Assembly: GCA_022457155.1 (NCBI GenBank)
Contig: JAJGOT010000164.1
Span: 822,501-886,500, forward strand
Direction: 5' to 3'
DNA length: 64,000 nt
DNA from: Cladopsammia gracilis
Taxonomy: Eukaryota; Cnidaria; Anthozoa; Scleractinia; Dendrophylliidae
The translations under genes and the position numbers were made by a program. Position 1 is the first letter of the stretch. Each line of letters begins with the position of its first letter. Under the pieces are notes generated by a model. The model worked only from the letters and a program-made list of their open reading frames with translations, was not told the DNA's origin and searched no databases. Shown here piece by piece: positions 3,067-64,000 of the stretch.

Positions 3067-3520
3067 ATGTGGGCATTGGAGATTTGCGGTGTTACGGTGT
3101 TGCTCATTTTTTTATGCGGTGTTGCGGTGAATAAAATCCCAGCTTGCGGTGTTGCGGTGATCTCAAACTTTACGGTGTGCGATGTTTACACTTTACAGTC
3201 TGCGGTGTTCGGTGCAACAAAATTATCTGCGGTGTCGCCGTTTCCTGTTTGACTCTAAATTTAGCCTCTATATGTTATTTACTTCGCACTTAGTTTTGAA
3301 AAGCAGGTACCATTATGTTAAATTTGTAACAAAAAACAGTACAATACTGTTTAGTTAATCTTCAATACTCTGCTGGTCGCCAATCCTAAGCCTTTTTCAT
3401 GGTAACTTGACAAAAAGATATATTGCGGTTACGGTGTTTCGTCGACTTTTCTTGGGGCGATGCGGTGTTCCGTAATTTATTTTGCCGGTGTTGCGGCGAT
3501 TCAGAGCGCCGTAATGTCTC
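3067..3520. repeat. Degenerate GCGGTG(TT) microrepeat block
   Basis: Irregular copies of GCGGTGTTGCGGTG are scattered between 3085 and 3245 and again at 3420-3510, separated by unrelated spacers of 10-30 bases. They make spurious short open frames on both strands. No function is evident. The block lies inside the left arm of the foldback structure and is missing from the right arm, so it was probably inserted or expanded there. Confidence 0.6.
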
Positions 3521-3677
3521 CCTCCAATAATATGAGCACAAAATTAAATCAAATAAATTGCCACTTTTACACTCTATGTAGTTTACCATTGAAAGAAAAC
3601 AAACTGCTCGTAGTCTAAACGAACATCTCTGTAACAGGCTATTGATTGTGTTCTAAAAATCAGATCTTTCTTACATC

Positions 3678-3678
<1 letters not shown>

Positions 3679-3710
<32 letters not shown>
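3679..3710. repeat. Poly(C) tract, 32 bases
   Basis: An uninterrupted C32 run lies at the inner end of the left foldback arm, facing a poly-G tract at the mirrored place in the right arm. Confidence 0.9.
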
Positions 3711-3712
<2 letters not shown>

Positions 3713-6094
3713 GCTCCCTACACAGTAGGCAGCAGATACACTTGGACTACAATGGCTCGTGGAAGGCACGACGCACACGACACCTGTTTTCTAATCCTTA
3801 AGTATTTAACTAACCAATATTATATAGAGTTTAAAGAGAATTGAAGACTTATCATTGCGACAAAAATCATCTACCGATCTAACAACTAATAATTTCATTC
3901 ACACGAAAGAACGAACAGTGGAAAGTCAAATTCATCGCATATTATTACTCATCATATCACTACAGCACCTGTGTTTTTAAACGCAAATCACTGTCAAATC
4001 TTATCATTAAAACCACTTTCCTTAGATGCCCTTCCGCTTTGCGGTGGCCACTCTGTTGTGCAGGCTAGCCATTTGACTTTACAACAAACGCACAGTTTAT
4101 TCTATTACAACTAGCAATTTGCCTTACCGTAGTTATCAAGTAATTATACTTACATGGAAACAATGTGTCGCGATCCCTAATTGTTTTCGGTGATGGCGGA
4201 ATGTTGTACAGTGTTCTATATGTGCTGTTCGCTACGAATTTCTACGCGCACCAACGACCTCAGAGCTAGAGGTCTAGCAACAAAATGGATTTCAAGCGAT
4301 CCAATTTTACTTGAAATTGTTGAAAAATCGAAACGCGTTCTTACAATGTCTTATGTAGAATGGTTTACGTGATTTAGAATAGAATGTCGTAAGTTTTCGT
4401 CACCGGAGCGTTGCAGTTACATTCCTTTGGGAGAGCGGAGTTCGTTTTGTACAGTATATAGTGATGTTCGGGTCGATATGTTAAGGTTTTTGAGGTCATG
4501 GTCAGTCGTTAAATAGGGTATTATTTTTGGTAATTTTGGTTTTGTGATGGTTAGAAATTCTACAATTGTAGTGTGCGACTAAAATAGGAGTTAAAAGGAG
4601 TTTCAAAAATTTGGTTTTCTACTGTCAATAGACGTTATCTTTAAGTGTCGGCAGTATGGTCCTGTGGTCGCCGCTGTCTCTCGTCGGCTTTCACATGAAA
4701 TGATGGACTATGACGGAGCGCGAAAGGCAAATTTATGTTCGAAGTGTGATGAAGTTTTATTGCGTTTATACTTGTAGCCAAGGGTAGCTGTGATGCTGGT
4801 TATTCGTGAGAATACTGTATGTCTATTTCAGAGACATTGTTTTAAATGTTTGAGAAGCAGCATATGTTTGATAAAACAATGGGTAGGTCTGTGTTTTTAT
4901 AAGCATAACGTTTAATTGGTAAGTTGAAAGAAAATGAAGATGATTTACAATTTGAAGAGATGAGTTGTCCGAAATAGCGTTTGAATGTAAAGGTTAGCAA
5001 TATTGACAAATTGTTTAAGATTGGTTATTAAATGTTGTATGATCTCTAATATTTTGTTGAAACTTGTTTAATTGTGGGTGGGCCGAAATATCTACCTTTT
5101 CCGGTTTACATTAGCGATGTCTGTCTTTCTGTTAAATGGAGTAATCAGGTAGTTGTGTATGGTTGTTGAAGGAATGATCTAATGCCGTTGTGGTGTCATC
5201 TGTTTCCTAACTATTAGGGATTACTGAAATGGATCATTTTAAATTTTAGAAATGAATTGGTTTTTATTTTATTGCTATTTGAAGTTAATTCTTGTTAAAA
5301 GTCTTAATATTTTTTGAGTGAGGGGGGGGGGGGGGGTTAAGGGTGGTGGATGAACTAAGAAAGATGTGATTTTTAGAAGAGAATAGCCTGTTACAGAAAT
5401 GTTCGTTTACACTACGAGCAGTTTGTTTTCTTTAAGTGTTTCACTATATAGAATGTAAAAGTGGCAATTTATTTGATTTAATTTTACCGTCATGTTTTTG
5501 ATTTTGGAAAAAAAGGATAGGAAATAGAGTGCAGATAGGCTTTCAGTGACACGGCGAGGTTTCGTGAGCCAAACGATTTAACGTGTGGTTGTCGGTCTTT
5601 TTTTTAGTGAAGATTTGCGTGCCTATCCTACCTAACCCTAACCTCATGTCATTAGTATTACAAGTTAAGTTTTTGTATTTTCTAGTTGAGATAATGAAAT
5701 CGTTGTTATTCGAGAAATCTGTGAAGTATATTTTATGGGAAATTGTTGAATTTATTTTTCTGTTCAGAATGTATTGTATAATTCTGCTTTAAATTTTCGT
5801 GCGTTTTTATTGATTTAAAATAGTTGCATCTTATCAGTTTTTACGCGGGTCGGTTTTTATTCAACACGTGTTAATTAGATTTCTAGAGTTCTTACTTTAG
5901 AGAGTAATATTTTGCAAACACGTTTACCATTTTGTATTCGGTAACATGTTTTGAGTATGGAACAAGTGTGTTTTGATTTAATAATGCTTTGTCGAGTTTA
6001 ATACAGTGCCTTTTTTGTGGTTAGTAATCTGAGATGAAAACAGTTAATGACGTGCTAATTAGAGTTAAAAAGATGTAATGCATTTTTGAGGTTA

Positions 6095-53734: not shown

Positions 53735-53823
53735 AAACGTTCAGTTACTGTGGTTACAAAAATGCTGTATAAGGATAGATACTCTATAAAAACTCAACTC
53801 TGGCCTTTTTCAGGGGAAGTGAA

Positions 53824-54154
53824 GTAGATAATAAAAGATTATTCACAGACAAAACATCATTTCGAACACTCCCCCAAACGTAAGGAATCTCATCAAGCAT
53901 TAAGCTAAAAAGCAACAAAACCATTTTGAGAAATAAATCCCAAATATTCTGCAGTTATTTGATATCCCTTTGAATTTGATTTAGAGTTCGAATCAACTAA
54001 CCAAATTCACCCCCAGTGTTAGCTAGCATAAGTAAAGAAATTTATTTCAAGTTTGAATTACCTTGCTTTTTAGCTTAATGTTTTATGAGATTCCTTACGT
54101 TTGGGGGAGTGTTAGAAATGATGTTTTGTCTGTGAATAATCTTTTATTATCTAC
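53824..54154. repeat. 92-bp inverted repeat at the left border of the viral element
   Basis: Arms 53824-53915 and 54063-54154 begin GTAGATAATAAAAGATTATT and differ at about four positions; the spacer is 147 bp. The inner edge lies 8 bp from the VLTF3-like stop codon. It could be a viral terminal foldback, the element's terminal repeat, or a MITE inserted at the border. Confidence 0.8.
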
Positions 54155-54162
54155 CGCTGAAA

Positions 54163-54917
54163 TCAAGCAGAAAATTTCCATCCCAATCTCAAAAAAATCT
54201 TTTTGCAGATTTCCTTATGTTCCTTTTTCCTATCTTCCGTCTTGATCAAAACAAAGTTTTCCTCCTTCACATTATGCCCCAATCTTTTCAGCAAATGAAA
54301 CAAAACAAACTGGGAATGAAGAAGTTTCTTTCTCCCTCCAGCAATCAAATCATATTCAGCTGAAAAAGTTCGAAAGTCTTCGAGCAGCTGCGTTTCCAAA
54401 TGACCAATGTCATCCACATATTTTCCCGTGATTAAAACCACCAACGCATTTTCTTTTCCTTTCACAGATTTCACATGCCATATCGTCACAAAATCCAATA
54501 TGTGTTTCCTCGTGATTTCTTCTTTCTGCCAATAACAGAGTATTGTTGCAACTAACTTTTCAAGCTCATCTTCCTTCATGTTGATTTTGTTTTTCCCCTG
54601 ATATTTCTGCATGCAATTAGCGAAATGAGTAATTCGAGAATATGATTTTGGGGCTGAATTTGTTGAATATATCTCAAGCTGAATTTTTTCTTCCTCTTCC
54701 TCTTCCTCTTCCTTTTCGCTTCGCTCCGCTTCCCACACTCCAGTTGAAATGAGAAATGGTTTCGTTCTTTCATTGAATTCATTTTCAAGATCTTCCAGCG
54801 CTTCGCTTCGCGTTTTGCTTCCCGAAATCTTTCCATCACATCACCCAGGAGAGAAAAAAGAACTAACCGGTCATCGTCGGTTAGTTTTTCAACGAGGGAA
54901 AGATATTTCTCAAACAT
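54163..54917 (-). pseudogene. VLTF3-like late transcription factor, frameshifted
   Basis: The C-terminal part has the pattern of the VLTF3 family, known from pox-, asfar- and other large DNA viruses as a late-gene transcription factor. It shows RITHF followed by KYQGK, a helical middle, a LLHSQFVLFHLL block, and a lysine-rich end finishing LGWKF. The ATG at 54917, in context CAAAATG, opens a helical N-terminus (MFEKYLSLVEKL). The frame changes by -1 somewhere between about 54840 and 54740, near GAAGCGAAGCG microrepeats, and no in-phase slippery heptamer was seen there. An acidic Glu8 run follows at about 54690-54720. It is divergent from the acidic coiled-coil gene, with a 29-bp gap. The family call rests on motif order; the zinc-binding N-terminus usual for VLTF3 is not evident. 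Confidence 0.65.
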
Positions 54918-54946
54918 TTTGAAAAAAAGAAATCTTTCATTTCAAA

Positions 54947-55234
54947 ATGGATGCGGATGAAAGTGACCATGAAAATTGTCTTACTTGCTCAGAGGAAGAA
55001 AAAAGGACCGACGATGAAACCCCAACAACATCTGACGAGGAATTCATTGTCTCTGATTCGGAGATGGAGGAAGAAGCTGAGCGAAGCGAAGATGAAATGG
55101 AACTCATCTATGAGACAATTGTCAATCTCCAAGAGGAAAACAAGATTCTCAAAAATGAACTCAAAAAGCAAAGTTGCCTCCTCTGGGAAATCCACCGGGA
55201 ATTGAAAGAAAGCAAAGCGAAGCGAACGAAGTGA
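54947..55234 (+). CDS. Small acidic coiled-coil protein of the viral element
   Basis: 95 residues: a very acidic N-terminal half (EEEKRTDDET, SDEEF, EMEEEAERSEDEMEL) is followed by a heptad-like helix (about residues 50-90: YETIVNLQEENKILKNELKK) and a basic end (KESKAKRTK). The start ATG has the context CAAAATG, like the divergent VLTF3-like gene 29 bp away, so the two probably share a promoter. No family is recognised. Acidic, helical proteins of this sort may act as oligomerising adaptors or histone/DNA mimics, but that is speculation. The frame is intact. Confidence 0.6.
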   Translation: MDADESDHENCLTCSEEEKRTDDETPTTSDEEFIVSDSEMEEEAERSEDEMELIYETIVNLQEENKILKNELKKQSCLLWEIHRELKESKAKRTK

Positions 55235-55280
55235 GCCGCGCGAAGCGAGTAAAGCGAAGCTGAGCGAAGCGAAGCGGTGT
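55205..55280. repeat. GAAGCG/GCGAAGC microrepeat cluster
   Basis: The end of the acidic gene and the following spacer are made of AGCGAAGCGAAC, CGCGAAGCGAG, GAAGCTGAGCG and AAGCGAAGCGG units. The same unit occurs inside other genes of the element (54700-54725, 54798-54815, 55077-55092, 57293-57301, 61000-61015 and 59670). Confidence 0.75.
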
Positions 55281-55326
55281 TTTGAAACCCTGAATATGAA
55301 TGTAAAACATTTATATTCTGTCTAGA

Positions 55327-56277
55327 TTAATTTAGCTTTTCCGCATCAATCAACGGTATCCACGAATTGAATTTGTCGGAATAGCCTTTCCACTTAACGA
55401 ATGCTTTCTTTTTCTTCTGGTCCCGGCGAATAACCTTTTCAATGCGGAAAACATCCTGCGTAGTAGGCGACAATTCTGCTTCATAAAACGATCCGGTTAT
55501 TTTTTCTCCCAGCAGATCGACTAATTTATACGTTACAGGATTTGTGTTCAATATTTCATCGATAACAAATATCTCTTCTGTCCAGTTCGGCGTGAAACCT
55601 TTGTCGAATATCTTTCGCTTGTATTTTGAAATTCGGACTCTGTCGCCGACTTTGAATTTTGCTGGGTTGTGTTTAGCATAAAGTAAATCGCCGTATAAAT
55701 TAGCAAAAACCTTTTTCTCATTTTTCTGTTTGCTCGCCTCTGCGGGAGTCATCCGAATGCTCGAATGAAAACGACGATTATATTGATTCACTAACCTGTC
55801 AAGTTTATCGAAATACACTGTATTATTGTTAGCAGAAAACATCTTAAAGAGTTTCTCCTTCATCGTCTTATTCCAACGCTCGACAACAGATGACTTTTCT
55901 TCGTTCTCCGTGACATACAATTTTATCCCATTCTTATCCAGGAGATTCTTCTTTGTTCCATTGAAAAATTCAGACCCTTTGTCTGTCCAAAGCATTTTCG
56001 GTTTTCGCTTCGCGTTGAATATGGATCGGAAAGCATCGGCGACTGATTGACCTCGCTTGTCTTTCAGGGGGCGTATCCAACCATATTTTGAGAAGACATC
56101 GATCACCATCGGGAGATGTTTGATCCCTTTGTTCCACTTCGAAAATTTCCCCATCTCGACTAAATCAGCCACCCAGATTTTGTCAATTCCATATGCTATG
56201 CCTCTTCGTTTTGGAAAGCGCCGCCTGATTGGCCGGTGAAGTTCGTTTGCCAGATTTTGAGCCCAGCCTTCACTCAA
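55327..56277 (-). CDS. Retrovirus-type integrase with C-terminal chromodomain
   Basis: It catalyses strand transfer of the viral DNA into host chromosomes. Counting from a TTG at 56277, the rve core shows VADLVEM (D38), LWTDKGSEF (D99) and VVERWNKTMKEKL (E133), the D-D-E triad. An SH3-like DNA-binding part follows (KVGDRVRISKY, about 205-215), then a chromodomain (about 272-316: FRIEKVIRR, AFVKWKGYSDKFNSWIP) that would target histone marks. All key residues are present and the 316-codon frame is unbroken. No ATG precedes the conserved start. The frame overlaps the end of the PLA2-like gene (TTGA overlap) and is open in its -1 frame from the slippery site at 56289-56295. First internal ATG: VEM at residue 42, too late for a complete core. 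Confidence 0.92.
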   Translation of the reverse strand: MSEGWAQNLANELHRPIRRRFPKRRGIAYGIDKIWVADLVEMGKFSKWNKGIKHLPMVIDVFSKYGWIRPLKDKRGQSVADAFRSIFNAKRKPKMLWTDKGSEFFNGTKKNLLDKNGIKLYVTENEEKSSVVERWNKTMKEKLFKMFSANNNTVYFDKLDRLVNQYNRRFHSSIRMTPAEASKQKNEKKVFANLYGDLLYAKHNPAKFKVGDRVRISKYKRKIFDKGFTPNWTEEIFVIDEILNTNPVTYKLVDLLGEKITGSFYEAELSPTTQDVFRIEKVIRRDQKKKKAFVKWKGYSDKFNSWIPLIDAEKLN

Positions 56278-56295
56278 AATCTTTTCCCGTTTTTT
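56237..56295 (-). promoter_or_regulatory. Candidate -1 ribosomal frameshift signal (PLA2-like to integrase)
   Basis: Reading the minus strand, the heptamer A-AAA-AAC (56289-56295) is in phase with the PLA2-like frame. It is followed by a 7-base spacer and a 9-bp perfect stem GATTTTGAG/CTCAAAATC (56273-56281 with 56253-56261) with an 11-base loop. Loop bases TGAAG could pair with CTTCA at 56237-56241 as a pseudoknot. The PLA2-like stop TGA (56274-56276) lies 12 bases after the heptamer, and the -1 frame is the integrase. The arrangement is textbook, but function is untested. Confidence 0.5.
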
Positions 56296-57040
56296 GGGAC
56301 ACCCAAACCAAGTTTTTGTTTTACATCAATGGTATTTCGCGCCAAAGCATGACCCCATTGTCTTTCTTTCCAGGGAATGGAATCCAAAGCGGCAACCATT
56401 TTCCTGTCTGCTTCATTTTTGCATTTGCGTGGATTCTTTCCCTTCGCACAAACTAAATAATCAACATCGTGCTGCATAGCAACTGCGTCTGTTTTTCCCG
56501 TGGGCTGCTGATAAATTTAGAGGATTTCTCCTTTTTCATTGAATCTGACTTGCTTTTTGAGTGGGTTTCCGGGTCCTGTGAAGTTATGCCCTGGGAGAGT
56601 GAAACCTTTCTTTGGTCTTGGCAGTTTCATAATTAAAGCATGGGCGTCAATGCCACGACCGGATAAGGGATCTAATTTCTTTGAAAGGTCTTTTCTGAAT
56701 GCATCCAAACCTTGATCAAGATATTTGCTCACAGTACTTTTAATCTTTTGTTTGGCAAAATCTGATTTAACCGCTTTACTTAATCCAATGCGGCCAAGAT
56801 TATATAATCCTTTAACACTGCCTTTTAAAGCCATTTCGCCGAGTGAATGGCTATCGGCTATATCGAAAAGGCCCCCACCTCGTGAGGGCAGACTCAGTTT
56901 CCCTTCACAAATCTTGTCTTTTTTATTCCACGGGAAGCGCAACGGCAAAACCACATATTTCTTCCATTTTTTGTGGTCATATATCGAGATGGATTCACGC
57001 ATTCAGTTTGTTTTTTCTCCTTCACACAATATGACTTCAT
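56274..57040 (-). pseudogene. Zinc-ribbon plus PLA2-like capsid protein, broken
   Basis: ATG at 57040 (context GAAAATG) opens a zinc-ribbon-like stretch with YCVKEKKQ, TTKNGR and CASRG; two of the four expected cysteines are replaced. The frame shifts by -1 between about 56930 and 56890. The next frame has GGGLFDIADSHSLGEMALKG, GLYNLGRIG, and a glycine/proline block GFTLPGHNFTGPGNPL. After an in-frame TAA (56517-56519) it continues with QHDVDY and NEADRKM. GPGNPL, HDxxY and the later Asp are the calcium-loop and catalytic elements of parvovirus-type phospholipase A2 domains, which help virions leave endosomes. Similar proteins are known in adintoviruses and Polintons. It is upstream of the integrase, with which it overlaps. 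Confidence 0.7.
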
Positions 57041-57042
57041 TT

Positions 57043-57492
57043 TCAATCGAAATATTCTTTTATGAATCTTTCATTAAACATGGAATCAGTCAGACTGAGA
57101 GGTTTGACAATATCATAATAATCTTTTCCCATTGCCCATTGATGCAGAAAATACAAGCAATAATACCCGCAAAGGACACTGTTGATGTTTTGATACTGAC
57201 TGCTGTTCCAGATCACCCGTTTGCCACTTCTGAATTCTTGGGGATAACCCATCCCAAAACTATCGAAATACCACGTGAATTTCCCAGAAGGAGCGAAGCG
57301 ACCAGGCGCGCAACAAACCCAATGAGTTCCTGCATTTTCAAGCGAATCAAGATTGATGATGCATGGGCTGTGTTTTTTGGGCATGAATTCATCCCTTGCA
57401 AAGATGCCTTTGAAATTTGGAATTTTCAGATAGTCTATCCACTTCATGAGATCAACATTGTTCAGAGGTTTATTCACGAATTTGGGTTTCAC
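57043..57492 (-). CDS. Adenain-type (Ulp1-fold) maturation protease
   Basis: A cysteine protease that would cleave capsid and core precursors during virion maturation. Counted from GTG at 57492, it shows THW (His57), FDSFG (Asp77), a glutamine at 99 or 101 for the oxyanion hole and LCGYYC (Cys108), with 149 codons in all. The conserved start (PLNNVDLMKWIDYLKIPNFKG) lies partly before the first ATG (codon 16), so the natural start is upstream of it. The GTG overlaps the stop of the core gene (GTGA), where an ATG is missing. The frame is also open in the -1 phase from slippery runs at 57558-57573 in the core gene. All catalytic residues are intact. Confidence 0.9.
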   Translation of the reverse strand: MKPKFVNKPLNNVDLMKWIDYLKIPNFKGIFARDEFMPKKHSPCIINLDSLENAGTHWVCCAPGRFAPSGKFTWYFDSFGMGYPQEFRSGKRVIWNSSQYQNINSVLCGYYCLYFLHQWAMGKDYYDIVKPLSLTDSMFNERFIKEYFD

Positions 57493-58340
57493 AGTATTGC
57501 CCCGAGAATTGGTACTTTGTTGAATGGACTGTTCCCCCCTAACAGAAGTCCTTTGCCCTTTTTTGATTTTTTTTTACCCATCGCAACAGGGTTTCGTCCC
57601 CAGTTACCAATAAATGGGGGAGGTGGTTCCCAAGGGGCTCCCAATCTTGGAGCACCTTTTCCTTTTGGACGTCCAACTCTTGGAGCACCTTTTCCTTTTG
57701 GACGTCCAACTCTTGGAGCTCCCTTCCCAAACAAATTTTTAACCATGTCAAGAGCTAGCGGAATTCCAATGGATGCCAGCACAGTTCCCAACAATCCACC
57801 GGATTGTTTTGCTGATGGTTTTATCACTAATCGACCTCCTGATTTAAGGGCATTCAGAATTACCTGTTTCTGTTTATTTGTCAACAAATGTTTATTGTCA
57901 ATCAGTTTCTGAATTTTATCTTGGGGGATGAGAAACCCACCCACGTGCCCCTTCCCACTTATCTTTTTAACGACTTGACTCGCTCCTTCACTTGCCAGTC
58001 CAGCAAGAGCTGATAATCCAAGTGTTTTAGCCAGGGTGGGTGCCAGTGAACGAGCTAAGGGAACAATAGCAGAAAATAAACTTCCGCCCTGTCTCATCAC
58101 CTTTCTTATTTGTGTTTTCGATATTTTGATCTCAACTCCCATTCCAAGGGATGCCGCTTTGCCGATTCTTTTAATTTGATTGGCTGTTAGCAATAATTCA
58201 TCACTTCCGCTTGTTTGATTTTTACTTAATCTCAGGGTGATAGGGCTGTTTGTTCTGAATGCTTTTGCAAGCTTGTTTTTTTGCCCTTCGGATAAATTTA
58301 CTTTATATGGATGATATGTTGTCATTTTAAATGATAACAT
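57489..58340 (-). CDS. pX/pVI-like core or minor capsid protein
   Basis: 283 codons from ATG 58340; a second ATG at 58325 (MTTYHPYKV) has the TTAAAATG context shared by neighbouring genes and is the likelier start. The N-terminal third has a KVNLSEGQKNKLAKAF block and an ITLRL strand. In the middle is a hydrophobic or amphipathic stretch (SLAPTLAKTLGLSALAGLA). Then comes GGFLIPQDKIQKLIDNKHLL and QSGGLLGTVLASIGIPLALD, which are repeated hallmarks of this family in cnidarian and mollusc Polintons. The tail is Lys/Gly/Pro-rich with 2.3 copies of GKGAPRVGRPK (33-bp repeat, 57646-57724). It resembles adenovirus core/protein-VI-type products: DNA condensing and membrane active. It is upstream of the protease, its probable processor. 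Intact. Confidence 0.7.
   Translation of the reverse strand: MLSFKMTTYHPYKVNLSEGQKNKLAKAFRTNSPITLRLSKNQTSGSDELLLTANQIKRIGKAASLGMGVEIKISKTQIRKVMRQGGSLFSAIVPLARSLAPTLAKTLGLSALAGLASEGASQVVKKISGKGHVGGFLIPQDKIQKLIDNKHLLTNKQKQVILNALKSGGRLVIKPSAKQSGGLLGTVLASIGIPLALDMVKNLFGKGAPRVGRPKGKGAPRVGRPKGKGAPRLGAPWEPPPPFIGNWGRNPVAMGKKKSKKGKGLLLGGNSPFNKVPILGAIL
57541..57573 (-). promoter_or_regulatory. Candidate -1 frameshift signal (core gene to protease)
   Basis: On the minus strand two in-phase heptamers occur in the core frame: A-AAA-AAA (57567-57573) and A-AAA-AAG (57558-57564). Six bases after the second, a stem of 4+4 bp with a TTC bulge can form (GGAC-TTC-TGTT with AACAGTCC, loop AGGGGGG). The protease frame has a TAA just before the first heptamer and is open from there. 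It may instead be chance in a lysine-rich tail. Confidence 0.35.
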
Positions 58341-58351
58341 ATGTTTTCAGA

Positions 58352-59639
58352 TCACACGATAACTAATTCATTTCCAATTTTATCAATTTTCACCATTTCT
58401 TCATAAACAACTATCGCATGTACATTGAAGTTGGCGGCTGCATGCATCTGCGTTCAATCGGAACCTGAATATCAACTGTTTGGGATCTCTTGTTGGTTTT
58501 TCAGTTTGATAAGTCAGATCGAAATAAATCAATCCATAAAGGGAATTGAAATTGGCCAGATTCAATTGTGTTCCAGTGTTGTAGTCATTTTTCCTCATTG
58601 CATAAGCCATTACATCCTGGAATATTCTTACTTTGCTTTCACTGTCATACTCTGTTTCCGGGTAGAAAACGTTTCCATACTCTAATCGACAGTTCAACAA
58701 GGATTAGTCGTTATCTGCCTCATTCAGCTTGAAAGTGTCCATCAGATAAGGGTTATCTTCTGCAGGGTCATTATTGGGTGGGTCTGTTCTTTTCAAATAA
58801 ATGAAAATATGCCTCACATTGTCAATGGATGCAGATATCTGGAAGAATCCTGATGACCGCGTTGGAGCTGATTGTTGATACATTTCCCTCAGATATTTCC
58901 ATTGCGTTTCTTTCAGGAATGCGCTGACAAATTTGTCATACAGAGAATCTTTGGGGGTCAATCTTGGCACCCAAAGCAAAAACCGGTTCACAACAACTCT
59001 TCCAGCATCAACTCCATTAGCCATATGAATTAATTCCCCATCATCATTAAGGGTAATCCCAAATTGCAACTGCATAGGCACAAGCATCTTATCTTCCAAC
59101 TCTTCGAAAAAGGAAAAACGATTCAGGGGAATAATCACGTTAATGTTCTTTGCACCTCCGTTTCCATCGTTTTGCGCTGCTTGAGATTGCAACCGGCGAG
59201 CTTCAAATCCGGTATTTCCAACAGCTGTTGTTCTAGTCGTATCCAAATACCAGAAACTGTTCTTAGCTACTGATCTGCTGAAGTCATCGGAGTATTCTAA
59301 CAAATTCTTTGCGAAACAGACTTTATGCAGATTGTCACTGTCATAAACAATCTTTCCTGCAGATTTAATCATCATGTGCTTAATCAGGGAATGAGCCCCA
59401 TTGATCACTGTGATCCTGTCAGCTGCCCTATATCCAGCACCGTCTGCCGTTTTCTGGAGTTGAAATTGCACCTCCAAATAAGCATTGTACCAATCATAGA
59501 ATGCGGATCGGTCATTAATTGTGAATTTATAACCATTTTTCGTTTGGTGTTGCCCATTAGCTGGAGCTCTGATTGTGTCATCCAGCTGGACGCGCACTAA
59601 TTCATTTCTTTGAAGATATTCATTCGATCTAAAAGCCAT
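58352..59639 (-). pseudogene. Major capsid protein (double jelly-roll type), broken
   Basis: The gene begins MAFRSNEYLQRNELVRVQLDD (ATG 59639, context TAAAATGG). It carries the beta-rich pattern expected of the hexon-like capsid protein that builds the pseudo-hexagonal shell, including NDRSAFYDWYNAYLEVQFQL, KHMMIKSAGKIVYDSDNL and IIPLNRFSFFEEL. An in-frame TAA at 58704-58706 interrupts it, and the same frame continues with YPETEYDS, FQDVMAYAMRKND and TGTQLNLANFNSLYG. Near the end a TGCATGCA tandem duplication (58439-58446) shifts the frame; the last 20 or so codons are read one frame over to a TGA at 58352. The full span is about 429 codons, short for a hexon. It is placed by context and fold-like pattern; no search was run. 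Confidence 0.75.
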
Positions 59640-59640
59640 T

Positions 59641-60024
59641 TTATATTCTTTTATTTCTTTTTCGGCTCGCTCCCCCAGAGATTAATCTGTTCAATATAGC
59701 ATCAGCACTTTCTCCGGATGCAGGGGCTGATCGGGTTGGCTGTTTTTTGCCTGGCGGCTTCCCCTTTCTCATATTTCCCAGTTTTTTCATTACCAAATCA
59801 CCAAATTTTTCAACTGCTTTTTTGCCCAGTTTTTCTCCAGCGTGAGAAATTCCTTATTCCAATGCTTTTTTCGCGAAAGGTTTTGCAACTTTGTTGAAAA
59901 CGGCTGACATAACCGTCCTCATTGGCCTGAAAATATTATCCACAATGACACCTGTTCCTTTGTGTCGATAAACAAACCGCCCGCTTCGGGGGTGGAAATA
60001 ACGACGGAATTCATATGATTTCAT
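59641..60024 (-). pseudogene. Small basic viral protein with in-frame stop
   Basis: A 127-codon frame: MKSYEFRRYFHPRSGRF, then a Lys/Ala-rich helical part (VAKPFAKKALE, GEKLGKKAVEKFG) and an Arg/Lys-rich end. Codon 57 is TAA (59854-59856). The start overlaps the stop of the penton-like gene as ATGA. The next gene (capsid) begins one base after its stop, so it sits inside a tight block. The charge suggests DNA binding or a capsid cement role. No family is recognised. Confidence 0.6.
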
Positions 60025-60791
60025 TTTATTACCTTTTTCAAGATAAGAGAGAATGCTGTATCAGCTCCATTCAGATTAACAATCCTCCTTCGACCATCAG
60101 TGATATAAATTCGAATGGAGCTCACCGTGTTTTTATTTACAGGGCTGAATGTGATTCTCATGGGTTCCAAAGTGAAACTATATGATGCCTGCAGAACAGA
60201 TGTTGAAAAGGAGAAGATGATATCACTCTCTTCCCCATCCACAAGCGAATCATTTGTGAGATCGCAATGAACGTTCAACATATCAGTATCTTGGCTGAGG
60301 TTTGGAACTTTGGGGCCAACATTAACTCTGTCTTTCAGAATCTTTTTATCGAAACCAATGCGATCCCCGAAATTGGATTGGGTGAGATCCAGTTGATAAT
60401 TTTCTGTTAGCCCGATTGTTACTCTGAAGGTTGTGAGACTAAAAGCAAGATTGATTGGGAATTTTTCATTTTTACCTGGGGTGGATCCTGCGAGGGGACC
60501 TGTTGCTTTTTGAAATGCCGCATTCGTCGTGGGATAATCCCAAACCCCAGCAGGAAAGGTGATATTGGAAAATGTTTTCCCACCATCAGAGCTGAACCTG
60601 ATCAGCTGATTATTCAATGTCGCATTGATGTTATACCACGTAAAACTCATATTGATAATTCTGTTAAGCCCAACAACATATCGTTCATTTGGGTCCAAAA
60701 CGATTGGCTGATTGAATTTTGTTGTGAAATTTTCTGGTTTGTTTCCGCCTGTCTTGACGGCGTAGGATGATAAAACAATTTCTCTTTCCAT
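60021..60791 (-). CDS. Penton-like single jelly-roll minor capsid protein
   Basis: 256 residues from ATG 60791 (context TAAAATGG, one base after the stop of the previous gene). Beta-rich, with KPENFTTKFNQPIVLDPNERYVVGL near the N-terminus, NYQLDLTQSNFGDRIGF in the middle and a C-terminal run of strands (SYSFTLEPMRITFSPV, SSIRIYITDGRRRIVNLNG). Position next to the major capsid gene, size and predicted strands fit the vertex (penton) protein of Polintons and adintoviruses. An upstream in-frame ATG at 60827 lies inside the preceding gene and is unlikely. Intact. Confidence 0.7.
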   Translation of the reverse strand: MEREIVLSSYAVKTGGNKPENFTTKFNQPIVLDPNERYVVGLNRIINMSFTWYNINATLNNQLIRFSSDGGKTFSNITFPAGVWDYPTTNAAFQKATGPLAGSTPGKNEKFPINLAFSLTTFRVTIGLTENYQLDLTQSNFGDRIGFDKKILKDRVNVGPKVPNLSQDTDMLNVHCDLTNDSLVDGEESDIIFSFSTSVLQASYSFTLEPMRITFSPVNKNTVSSIRIYITDGRRRIVNLNGADTAFSLILKKVIK

Positions 60792-60792
60792 T

Positions 60793-61794
60793 TTAGGGTT
60801 TGAAATAGTTTCTGAAGATCTTCTCATGTTGGGATCTGTTGATGCGCCCCTCTTTCAGGAGAAGATCGAGAATTGACACCCCGGTATTTCTTTCGTCGAT
60901 GTTTGTATTCCCAGCAAGGATGGAGCCAACGATGACTTCAAGTTTCTGGGCAAGATCTGTCGGATTGGAGAAAAAACGGATGGCTCCGCCGCCCCTTCGA
61001 TCGCTCCGCTCCCGCTTTCGGCCCCTGATTCCAGAACCTGTCAATGTTGTCGCTTTCTTTTTGTAATGATTTATGTATTCATTTAATGCTTTGAATGAAC
61101 GATCTATTCTTTGATGTTGCCAATTCTTTTGCTCTTCCGTTATTTCCCCTTTCTTGAATTTTTTGGTGAAAGATGATTTATACCCTTTCAATTGATTTCT
61201 TCTGAAGTTTGCAATGGTCACAAGATCATTGAGATAATGGATTTTCTTCGCTGATGAGACATTTGGTTCACTGAGAGTTTTCTCCGCAGTATCATAATTC
61301 GTGAGGTCCAAGCTATCCAATATCTGATTGGCTTCATCTCCTTTTTCCTCTTCCTTTTCATCACCCGGTTCCAGAGTATAATCAGGGAATGGCTCTTCTT
61401 CATATTCAGGTGGATCTTCCCCTATCTCTTTCGCAACTTCTTCATATGTTGGAGGAGGGGGTCTGATTTGTTTCGCTGCTTGCGGTGGAACAGCTGGTTC
61501 ATCAAACATGCCTTCAACATCCATCTCTTCAAATGGGTCGGCTTCTGGGAGATAATCTATGCCTGGTGGATCTCCAACGACTTTCTTTTTCCGGATTTTT
61601 AGGGGCAACGGCCTCAAATTCGATGCAATAACATCATCCAGTTTCGATGTGACTGGCTTGAACATTTTTTCAAGTCCGATTTGACTTGTTTCTTCACCCA
61701 ACTTTTTCCGGGTGATGGCATCATGAACAAAGTTGATTTTTTTACCCAAAGCAGATTTGCTTTTTGCAATTTCTTGCCATTTCAATAAACTCAT
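60793..61794 (-). CDS. Structural protein with two PPxY late-domain motifs
   Basis: 333 residues from ATG 61794 (context ATAAAATG). The frame is also open further upstream, but that lacks the context. The N-terminal part is basic. Residues 78-160 are acidic and proline-rich with PPTY (114-117) and PPEY (128-131). PPxY motifs bind WW domains of NEDD4-type ubiquitin ligases and in viruses serve budding or endosomal trafficking. A helical middle (NFRRNQLKGYKSSFTKKF, about 215-235) and a C-terminal helical domain (about 280-333) follow. Adenoviral capsid proteins carry comparable PPxY motifs. It is divergent from the packaging ATPase and first in the late-type block. Intact; the exact homologue is unknown. 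Confidence 0.65.
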   Translation of the reverse strand: MSLLKWQEIAKSKSALGKKINFVHDAITRKKLGEETSQIGLEKMFKPVTSKLDDVIASNLRPLPLKIRKKKVVGDPPGIDYLPEADPFEEMDVEGMFDEPAVPPQAAKQIRPPPPTYEEVAKEIGEDPPEYEEEPFPDYTLEPGDEKEEEKGDEANQILDSLDLTNYDTAEKTLSEPNVSSAKKIHYLNDLVTIANFRRNQLKGYKSSFTKKFKKGEITEEQKNWQHQRIDRSFKALNEYINHYKKKATTLTGSGIRGRKRERSDRRGGGAIRFFSNPTDLAQKLEVIVGSILAGNTNIDERNTGVSILDLLLKEGRINRSQHEKIFRNYFKP

Positions 61795-61874
61795 TTTATT
61801 ACTCAAAGATACAAATTTGGGATGAAGAACAGGATGTAGAACAAGAAGTAGAACATGATGTTCTTCATAATAAA
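61795..61874. promoter_or_regulatory. Divergent promoter between PPxY gene and packaging ATPase
   Basis: An 80-bp AT-rich spacer lies between two divergent ATGs, both preceded by ATAAA. It contains the palindrome AGAACATGATGTTCT (61850-61864, one-base centre), preceded by two GTAGAACA half-site-like copies. A shared operator or promoter is plausible. Confidence 0.45.
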
Positions 61875-62511
61875 ATGAAGATCCCAAATTATGATTGCCA
61901 TGACCCAATCACAAATTTCGAGCAGCTGCTCGATTTCATGCCTGATCGAGCTTTCAGAATGCTTATCTGTGGCCCTTCAGGGTCAGGGAAAACAAATGTT
62001 CTCCTGGATATGATATTACGCCCGCTGCTGTATTACGATAAAATCTATCTCTATGCGAAAAATCTTGAACAATCCAAATATCAGCATCTGCTAAAAAAAA
62101 TTTCGCCCAATCAGCAAAGAAGCTGGGTATGACGTCGTGGAAGCATCCCCGGATGAAATCATCCCAGTTTCTGAATTATCCGATGATAATCAAAAACTGG
62201 TTGTTTTCGATGATTTTGTTTGCGAAAAGAATCAAAAGCCATTGATTGATTATTTTATCCAGGCCCGACATAAGAATTGCTCTGTCGTGTATCTTTCGCA
62301 AAGTTATTTCAGAACACCAAAAGATATCCGTGTGAATTGTTCGCATTTTTGCATCTTCGAATTCCCCAGCAACAAAGAAATTGCTGAGTTATGCCGGGAT
62401 AATAATGTCAGCAAAGAATATTATGTGAAGGCAACGCATGACCCATTCTCTTTCCTGTACGTGGATAAGCCGAGGAAATTCATTGCCAAAAACGTTGATG
62501 AGAGAATCTAA
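61875..62511 (+). pseudogene. A32-type (FtsK/HerA) genome-packaging ATPase, frameshifted
   Basis: The ATPase that pumps viral DNA into the capsid. The first part (ATG 61875, context ATAAAATG) has the Walker A motif CGPSGSGKTN at residues 33-40 and ends out of frame at 62132. After an A8 run (62093-62100) the frame moves by +1. The second part carries Walker B KLVVFDDF (about 62187-62220), a QARHKNCSVVYLSQSYF stretch (sensor region) and ends at TAA 62511. With both parts the domain would be about 210 residues, normal for this family. The break is in a homopolymer, so it may be a real lesion or an assembly error. Confidence 0.9.
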
Positions 62512-62512
62512 A

Positions 62513-64000
62513 ATGAGCTATTCAAATGGACTGCTGTCCGATACAATCACCCACCAGGGAGGAAAAGATGGACTGCTAGGTGTTGGTTTTCAGCTGACAC
62601 CAGCGGGGGATTATGATATTCAAAGGAAAAAATTAACCAATGTCGCTGAAGGAACAGCGAATTCGGATGCAATCACAAAGCATCAAGTTGACACGCTTGC
62701 AACGCAGTTGCGGGCAGATTCACTTCAGGTTGATGGTTACTCGCATATGACTGGGGATCTTGATCTCAGGGGGCAAAACCTCATTAACCCCGGGGAAATA
62801 AAAATGAATTGCAAATTGATCACAAATCTGGATACTGATGAAAACAATGATCTTTCAGCGGTGAATGTGATCACTCTGAAAAAATTCCACCCTGATGCCC
62901 CAGCCCACACTCATGAAGTCACGAAGGATATTGATTTGAAAGGACTTTTCAATGTGGAAAACTCAAAACAGCAGACGTATCATGATTTGGGAGCGCATTA
63001 TAACAACCTTGTTTCATATAATGACGTAAAGAATATCTTTCTCAGCCGCAAAGAGGCGTTTCCAATGGAGACGACTTTGGATATGGGAAATCACACCATT
63101 TTCAATGTGAAAGATCCCGAAGTTGCCGACCAAGGCGCAAACATGCGATAAGTGGATGACCAATCCGCGAAAAAGCTTTCGTTGGAAGGTGGAACAATGA
63201 CTGGAAACCTGGATATGAACTCGCAACAAATCAACAATATTGCAGCGCCAACTCTGGATCATCAACCCGCGCCAAAATCTTATGTTGATGGACAACTTAA
63301 TCTCAAAATAGGAGATGTGGTATTCCACACGATAGAATTAGAAAATAAGCTCAAAAAATATGTAAATGAATCGCATATCACGTCAACCTCTCACCCGAAA
63401 GATGAATTCCGGAATCTGATGGAAGATGTGGATGAATCCAGCTCTGAATATAATATGACAGTGACTGCAATAACTGATTTTTCAAGTTCTCCGCATCATT
63501 TCAACAAGAAGGCGTACGATTTGAAAATAACAAAAGATCATTTTAATGAATACTCTGGGAGACTTGGATTCAATATGTTCCAATTACCAGAGGGAGAATA
63601 CACCGTGTGCGCGGAATTCTTCCCCGCGTCAATGGATGGTGTTAGTGTTAATGTCGTGAGCACCCGCCTGAATATCAATCAACAATCAACAAAGAAGTTT
63701 TCGAATTATGCCAGATCCATCATCCACATGCATAAATGGCAGATCTCCCCACCTGAATTCATCTATCTGGGTTTAAAATGGCGGGGAACCCCTGAATCAG
63801 CTGTAAAAGGAGATGCAAATCTGATCATATATGGCGTCAAAGGTTCTCAACCTGATGTTGAAAGCAGCGTTTATGATTCCCCTTTCGTTTTTGAAAATCA
63901 AAAGATGGTTATGGAGACTGACTTGGATTTGAATGGGAAAAAGTTGTTGAATTTCACTCCGCCTCCTTCAAAAGCTGTCATTCTTGCAAGGTATGAGAAT
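62513..64000 (+). pseudogene. Phage-tail-fibre-like protein, in-frame stop, runs off window
   Basis: ATG at 62513 (context TAAAATG) follows the ATPase stop by one base. It begins MSYSNGLLSDTITHQGGKDGL. Three copies of a fibre-type unit follow: MTGDLDLRGQNLINP (about 62750), TMTGNLDMNSQQINN then YVDGQLN (about 63195-63300), and METDLDLNGKKLLNF (about 63910). Such M-(T)-G-x-L-D-(L/M)-x-x-x-x-I-x-N units recur in tail fibres of tailed phages as triple-stranded shaft repeats. An in-frame TAA (63149-63151) sits where these repeats usually have YVDD. After it the frame stays open to the last base of the window (about 283 more codons). The probable role is host attachment; the homology is inferred from motifs. 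Confidence 0.65.

Follow-up and report, generated by a model that had tools for sequence, protein, structure and literature searches.

What is the cluster of virus-like genes at the right-hand end of the 64,000-nucleotide stretch analyzed here (the window), and which of its genes are unusual for such an element? An earlier note had read positions 53824 to 64000 as an integrated adintovirus or Polinton-like virus with an expanded gene set. The cluster is the left half of a degraded, virus-derived Polinton, the remainder of which lies beyond 64 kb. With a probability of roughly 0.9, the whole represents one full-length but decayed member of a Polinton/Maverick family present in many copies, which are integrating DNA viruses with a double jelly-roll capsid, residing in an animal genome that is probably cnidarian. 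Polintons as such are already known, as are PLA2 in them and deviant capsids in cnidarians. The unusual part is VLTF3, a late transcription factor commonly assigned to giant viruses and poxviruses.

Ends and gene set of the element

The right half of the element was read from two further 10-kb stretches of the same contig (L009 and L010). The complete element extends from window position 53823 to L010:2189, which corresponds to C304:876323-898689 (22,367 bp). The integration proposed in the earlier note is confirmed, both ends having been found with their repeats and 6-bp duplication, and the start proposed there (53824) was correct to one base. Extension of the contig past 64 kb, which the note had suggested as a check, located the other end at about L010:1863-2189 and also a polymerase-like gene. 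The terminal repeats are approximately 330 nt long and both termini read 5'-AGTAGATAATAAAAG, which is of the AG...CT type, with AAGTGA immediately outside each end as the 6-bp target-site duplication. The outermost 92 nt of both ends match in inverted orientation at 90 of 92 positions (97.8%), forming the 5'-AG...CT-3' terminal inverted repeats of Polintons/Mavericks, whereas the full repeats give their best alignment in the direct sense (96.4% over 331 nt), compared with 76-78% (77.9%) in the inverted sense. This is because the loop between the palindrome arms (92 nt each; 53824-53915 and 54063-54154 in the left repeat) has the same direction at both ends. These palindromic ends recall the flip/flop hairpin ends of parvoviruses. 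A contaminant contig join is excluded by the duplication at both ends inside a 1.5-Mb contig and by more than 100 relatives in the genome.

The element part of the window has 10 ATG-started frames of at least 140 aa (both strands, overlaps included), against 0-2 per 10 kb in positions 1-50,000 and 0 in each of 20 mononucleotide shuffles. From the left end the order is VLTF3, a small acidic open reading frame (ORF), integrase, PLA2, protease, a 283-aa protein, major capsid, candidate minor capsid, PPxY protein, ATPase, and fibre. About ten genes and the acidic ORF were counted in the window part, rather than the twelve genes claimed earlier.

Some of the earlier assignments were borne out by profiles or motifs. 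VLTF3 matches PF04947 at 3.4e-25. The integrase matches rve (PF00665, 3.4e-9, over cut-off) and has a C-terminal chromodomain (7.2e-6, Pfam); its NCBIfam matches were to IS481/IS3 transposases, under their cut-offs. Both halves of the A32 ATPase are over the PF04665 cut-off (3.7e-5 and 8.7e-8), and the PPxY protein contains PPPPTYEE and PPEYEE. Other assignments held in part. The protease matches the adenovirus-type family PF00770 (4.5e-4), its score of 20.4 bits being 0.9 bits under the curated cut-off of 21.3. For PLA2, the second half of the interrupted gene matches PF08398 at 1.1e-4 (22.9 bits, below the curated cut-off of 23.9) and the best hits of this half to parvovirus VP1 in PDB do not reach significance (E 0.5 and 1.5), whereas in a sister copy (L043) the gene is one frame with a match of 1.8e-10. 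The same half (56277-56516, minus strand, P0124) has a weak PDB hit to a chain of a ryanodine receptor (6uhi, 7.6e-4), probably by chance. The phage-like fibre is supported by weak stalk matches, including a phage fibre profile at 6.3e-5 and YadA_stalk at 2.2e-4, the latter under its cut-off. No Pfam family was matched by the 283-aa protein.

The capsid piece has 1299 relatives and no PDB match by sequence search. For a relative 89% identical to it (P0001), a predicted model (pLDDT 60.5) had 50 listed PDB matches, which are double jelly-roll capsids or their scaffold relatives, at low query TM-scores (0.22-0.32). As modelled, the protein is the double jelly-roll major capsid of a Polinton/Maverick, so that the jelly-roll assignment of the earlier note stands for the major capsid by the fold of this relative.

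In the structure search, a MELD virus protein held second place, followed in third place by an Adintovirus protein annotated as Penton capsid protein. Together with the integrase, whose rve domain and C-terminal chromodomain are among the features given in PMC11071296, and with a Stylophora coral adintovirus named in a figure legend of PMC11071308, this would suit an adintovirus in the strict sense (Adintoviridae, now named Eupolintoviridae; PMC12451622). However, cnidarian Polinton capsids were reported to fall outside the main animal cluster, which held all known adintovirus capsids (PMC10120064), so that deviant capsids in cnidarians are already in print, and the OTU-like N-terminus of the polymerase was not found among Pfam families at E up to 10 (frame L010:6-377). 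Membership in this group is a tentative reading, with odds slightly short of even.

The presence of VLTF3 and of A32 ATPase, both of which are core genes of giant viruses, could instead point to a fragment of an integrated giant virus. VLTF3 is shared with Nucleocytoviricota, but these have large genomes that are not known to have Polinton ends or integrase, and what was found is a complete 22-kb element with terminal repeats, a 6-bp duplication, integrase, and a protease-like gene. This origin is extremely improbable and was rejected on the grounds of 22.4 kb with both ends and integrase. A Polinton/Maverick remains the preferred reading.

VLTF3 among the related copies

In the searches of the genome, 150 of 1524 VLTF3 candidates, 126 of 4904 integrase candidates and 98 of 2971 capsid candidates were scored, and the copy numbers are lower bounds. 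VLTF3 has at least 150 matches, and all 150 scored above the curated cut-off. The profile had no match in 14 control genomes, which, judging by six of them with names, are seemingly prokaryotes and carry little weight as a control. Copies read in detail were the best-scoring ones, i.e., 30 VLTF3 loci of 3.4-3.5 kb (the window being L023) and 30 integrase loci (the window being L044), the two sets having at least 5 copies in common besides the window. An integrase related to that of the window flanks VLTF3 in 24 of the 29 other VLTF3 loci; conversely, VLTF3 flanks 26 and PLA2 all of the 29 other integrase loci. The gene order of the window recurs in the sister copy L043 (a 10-kb stretch, copy of L031), where the end palindrome is followed by VLTF3, the acidic ORF, the integrase, PLA2, the protease, the 283-aa protein, and the capsid. 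The window-type end repeat adjoins VLTF3 at 87-92% in five of the 29 loci (L021, L022, L025, L026, L028), is partial and weaker in L030, L034 and L038, amounts to 19-23 nt in L015 and L024, and was not found beside VLTF3 in the other 19.

Median dN/dS values are 0.34 for VLTF3 of type A (78 pairs), 0.19 (21 pairs) and 0.24 (119 pairs) for two sets of type B, and 0.12 for integrase. Every pair used is below 1 (copies with stops or low coverage were left out, and the pairs are not independent). These low values indicate that, during the spread of the elements, selection on the function of the protein preserved VLTF3. On these comparisons, VLTF3 is a regular gene of the lineage, located next to one end, and not a stray.

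Several observations weigh against the overall reading as a high-copy Polinton with VLTF3 as a regular gene. The integrase was not found within about 1.5 kb in five of the 29 VLTF3 loci (L012, L013, L020, L027, L040), two of which are another element type, and among the 24 loci that have it, the match covers just 48 and 41 residues in L019 and L021. VLTF3 was not found within about 1.5 kb in three of the 29 integrase loci (L051, L059, L061). The second jelly-roll protein of the earlier note, the candidate minor capsid at 60024-60827, has no telling Pfam profile and no PDB match by sequence, and its predicted model is unusable (pLDDT 30.6). Pfam gave no polymerase profile for the polymerase-like frames, even at E up to 10; we take them to be polymerase from motifs recognized by eye in L009 (DANSLYSWAM, NNAIFGK, TDTDS) and from their place. 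Nothing was found for them in NCBIfam, and in sequence searches of PDB the first piece gave low-scoring unrelated matches and the second piece none. As to the host, a cnidarian is suggested by one named relative (Montipora, 75%) and by the literature.

The VLTF3 genes fall into two types, A (that of the window) and B. Among the 27 integrase loci with VLTF3 (window included), 4 are of type A and 23 of type B, and VLTF3 lies on the PLA2 strand in 4/4 A loci and on the opposite strand in 23/23 B loci. The two types are 38.8% identical over 183 residues, whereas identity reaches 75.8% (91 residues) in the acidic ORF that separates VLTF3 from the integrase. Integrase identity to the window is 79-97% for loci of type A and 80-91% for those of type B, the ranges overlapping. 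In a first integrase tree (20 rows: 19 of the 25 loci with a match, selected by coverage and without one repeat copy, and the window), A was separated from B (94/90). In a fuller tree, to which the further integrase loci were added (46 rows: 45 loci and the window, six repeat copies left out), the A types, the B-type loci L049, L057 and L058, and three loci without VLTF3 form one 16-row set (98/95), and none of 200 bootstrap trees recovers A or B as a single clade. Many inner branches of this tree have weak support, and the bootstrap had not converged. The unequal divergence, the flipped orientation and the mixing in the integrase tree together suggest that VLTF3 was swapped or recombined in one slot beside the end repeat, and two independent captures may have occurred. 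As to the loops of the ends, the one at the VLTF3 end has the same orientation relative to VLTF3 as in the window in the five A-type copies with the end repeat. In L043, a second palindromic inverted repeat (L043:7634-7921; 78-nt arms, 94%) is located between PLA2 and protease and resembles the end palindromes in layout.

The protein database yielded 87 VLTF3 relatives, and among the 54 of at least 150 aa a zinc ribbon is present in P0194 alone. The unrooted VLTF3 tree comprised the window and 64 of the 87 (those of at least 140 aa), without named giant-virus references. Neither the A type of the window nor the B types seen have the N-terminal zinc ribbon of P0194 and of L042 (C689:40850-50849, around L012). 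The VLTF3 proteins of L012 and L013 are 363 and 343 aa long with a CxxC...CxxC ribbon, and the A type is 37.1% identical to the zinc-ribbon VLTF3 of L042, about as distant as from B. In L042 this VLTF3 stands beside a 1320-aa open frame with a DNA_pol_B_2 match (6.8e-49). Judged from these frames, L042 is a second, different type of VLTF3-bearing element in the same genome. Downstream of its VLTF3 a reverse-transcriptase-like frame was noted by eye (L042:2989-4272, minus strand; no Pfam match over cut-off), and a 99% inverted repeat of 238 nt occurs at 3450-3687 and 4272-4509.

We consider it rather more probable than its converse that these loci represent an animal Polinton lineage with VLTF3 as core gene, for which a single slot received the gene by capture or exchange on two or more occasions to give the A and B types, the L042 type carrying a third, zinc-ribbon form.

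Feature coordinates and decay of the copy

The window copy is dead, with interruptions in VLTF3, PLA2, capsid, ATPase, fibre, and polymerase that the earlier note had not remarked on; its integrase is open. Among the best-scoring copies in the genome, no internal stop is present in 108 of the 126 matches to the integrase or in 85 of the 98 to the capsid, frame shifts not being judged. The polymerase-like frames are interrupted by a LINE-type reverse transcriptase, for which exact ends and a target duplication were not found (Table 1). In a different locus, L021 (C1051), a polymerase-like piece (95% identical) directly adjoins a remnant of both integrase and VLTF3, so that this copy is rearranged.

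Table 1. Coordinates of the element and of related frames (window positions unless prefixed by L009, L010, or L042).
Feature	Position	Strand	Remarks
Target-site duplication AAGTGA, left copy	53817..53822	none	Read from both flanks; right copy at L010:2190-2195
Left terminal repeat, imperfect palindrome	53823..54154	none	Partner at about L010:1863-2189
VLTF3-like gene (A type)	54166..54917	-	Frame broken between about 54795 and 54819; relatives align there in two frames
Small acidic coiled-coil ORF	54947..55234	+	76% identical ORF at same place in L043
rve integrase with C-terminal chromodomain	55330..56277	-	Open in window copy
Parvovirus-type PLA2 gene	56277..57002	-	TAA at 56519-56517; GPG loop before the stop, HD..Y after it
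Adenain-type cysteine protease	57046..57492	-	Profile match slightly below cut-off; 80% identical frame in L043
Conserved 283-aa protein, glycine-rich hydrophobic stretches	57492..58340	-	88% identical over 268 residues in L043; putative minor virion protein
Double jelly-roll major capsid gene	58355..59639	-	Stop at 58706-58704; frame shift near 58440
Candidate minor capsid (penton) protein	60024..60827	-	Named from position and length only
PPxY-motif protein	60796..61908	-	Motifs in translation; frame may start later
A32-like packaging ATPase	61764..62511	+	PF04665 on both pieces; frame broken near 62132; start not fixed
Fibre-like protein	62438..64000, on to L009:336	+	Stop at 63149-63151; start not fixed
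154-aa ORF	L009:352-816		
ORFs with NUMOD1 (3.9e-5) and HTH-like match (0.0034, under cut-off)	L009:1453-2333	-	Two neighbouring ORFs
Tandem repeats, three stretches	L009:2372-3594		Between accessory ORFs and polymerase end
Polymerase-like frames with Endonuclease_7 domain	L009:7843-9999, 4664-5317, L010:3-377		
LINE-type reverse transcriptase	L009:5318-7840		Between polymerase pieces; PF00078 3.5e-31
ORF with SAP/Rho_N-like match	L010:583-1026		
Frames of second element type	L042:5835-9794 and 4715-5803	-	DNA_pol_B_2 frame beside zinc-ribbon VLTF3

Known relatives, probable mode of life, and meaning

Vertebrate Mavericks, whose marks include 6-bp duplications and (AGT)2 ends, share with the present element these duplications, AGT-type ends, terminal repeats, and integrase, polymerase, ATPase, protease, and capsid genes (PMC8097293). 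Their intact copies are 12.7-24.6 kb long and the majority of copies are degraded, which is a further likeness, but the terms vltf, late transcription, and phospholipase are absent from the main text of that paper. PLA2 itself is not new for Polintons, since Polintons with a parvovirus-type PLA2 are already in print (PMC4642659). Cnidarian Polintons with a double jelly-roll capsid were described (PMC4028283; PMC10120064), although VLTF3 is not mentioned in the available portions of these papers. VLTF3 was found in the genome of the sea anemone Exaiptasia, where the copies were reported to derive from one giant-virus gene and to stand alone amid genes of the animal (PMC5294986, 2017). Descent from a Polinton like the one described here could account for this. 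Adintovirus-like regions of Amoebidium, about 30 kb long, combine VLTF3, capsid genes, an adintovirus-like polymerase, and terminal repeats (PMC11244446), but the host is a unicellular relative of animals and a Dam methylase is listed; the likeness is drawn from the published description. At a guess, these regions might be closer to L042, in which a large polymerase adjoins the zinc-ribbon VLTF3.

Among the papers listed on VLTF3 together with Polintons, adintoviruses or cnidarians, none has a title or abstract opening that reports VLTF3 in an animal Polinton. A 2024 paper on mriyaviruses found homologues of VLTF2 and VLTF3 not detectable outside Nucleocytoviricota and treated them as diagnostic (PMC11253617). 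The earlier note had proposed a distinct lineage with links to larger DNA viruses. The link, which depends mainly on VLTF3, is upheld and strengthened; PLA2 in Polintons and deviant capsids in cnidarians were known before. Free viral relatives were not found in scans of viral contigs with the capsid, the capsid alignment, the polymerase piece, the VLTF3 alignment, P0194, or the minor capsid candidate.

The gene set suggests how the intact virus may have lived. Fibre and PLA2 would serve entry, and the integrase would insert the DNA by 6-bp staggered cuts. Replication would proceed from the ends by a protein-primed polymerase. In the late stage VLTF3 most likely turns on the virion genes. For assembly, the protease would act in capsid maturation and the ATPase in filling the capsids.

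The VLTF3 of poxviruses acts together with the viral RNA polymerase. Since no match to an RNA polymerase subunit was present among the frames scanned here (frames below 90 aa mostly left out), VLTF3 probably worked with host polymerase II or with the RNA polymerase of a helper giant virus. If the element was helper-dependent, a giant virus infecting the same cell would supply the RNA polymerase, and VLTF3 would adapt the late promoters of the element to it, in the way proposed for virophages. The standing of VLTF3 as a core gene of Nucleocytoviricota (PMC11253617) and the same lack of an RNA polymerase match are in favor of this, and the occupation of a single slot by two strongly divergent types of VLTF3 could reflect different partners; however, VLTF3 may equally serve host polymerase II. 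Helper dependence seems unlikely, and we lean to the host polymerase, because a giant virus of this host is not in evidence.

VLTF3 serves as a marker gene of giant viruses, and here it is found under purifying selection in a multi-copy animal Polinton. Surveys of giant-virus insertions that rest on VLTF3 could mistakenly count Polintons. It becomes possible to trace how genes have moved between giant DNA viruses and small ones, and the question is raised as to which RNA polymerase is the partner of a Polinton's VLTF3. If VLTF3 is indeed a core gene of this lineage, it would cease to mark giant viruses, and isolated cnidarian VLTF3 genes would be Polinton remnants.

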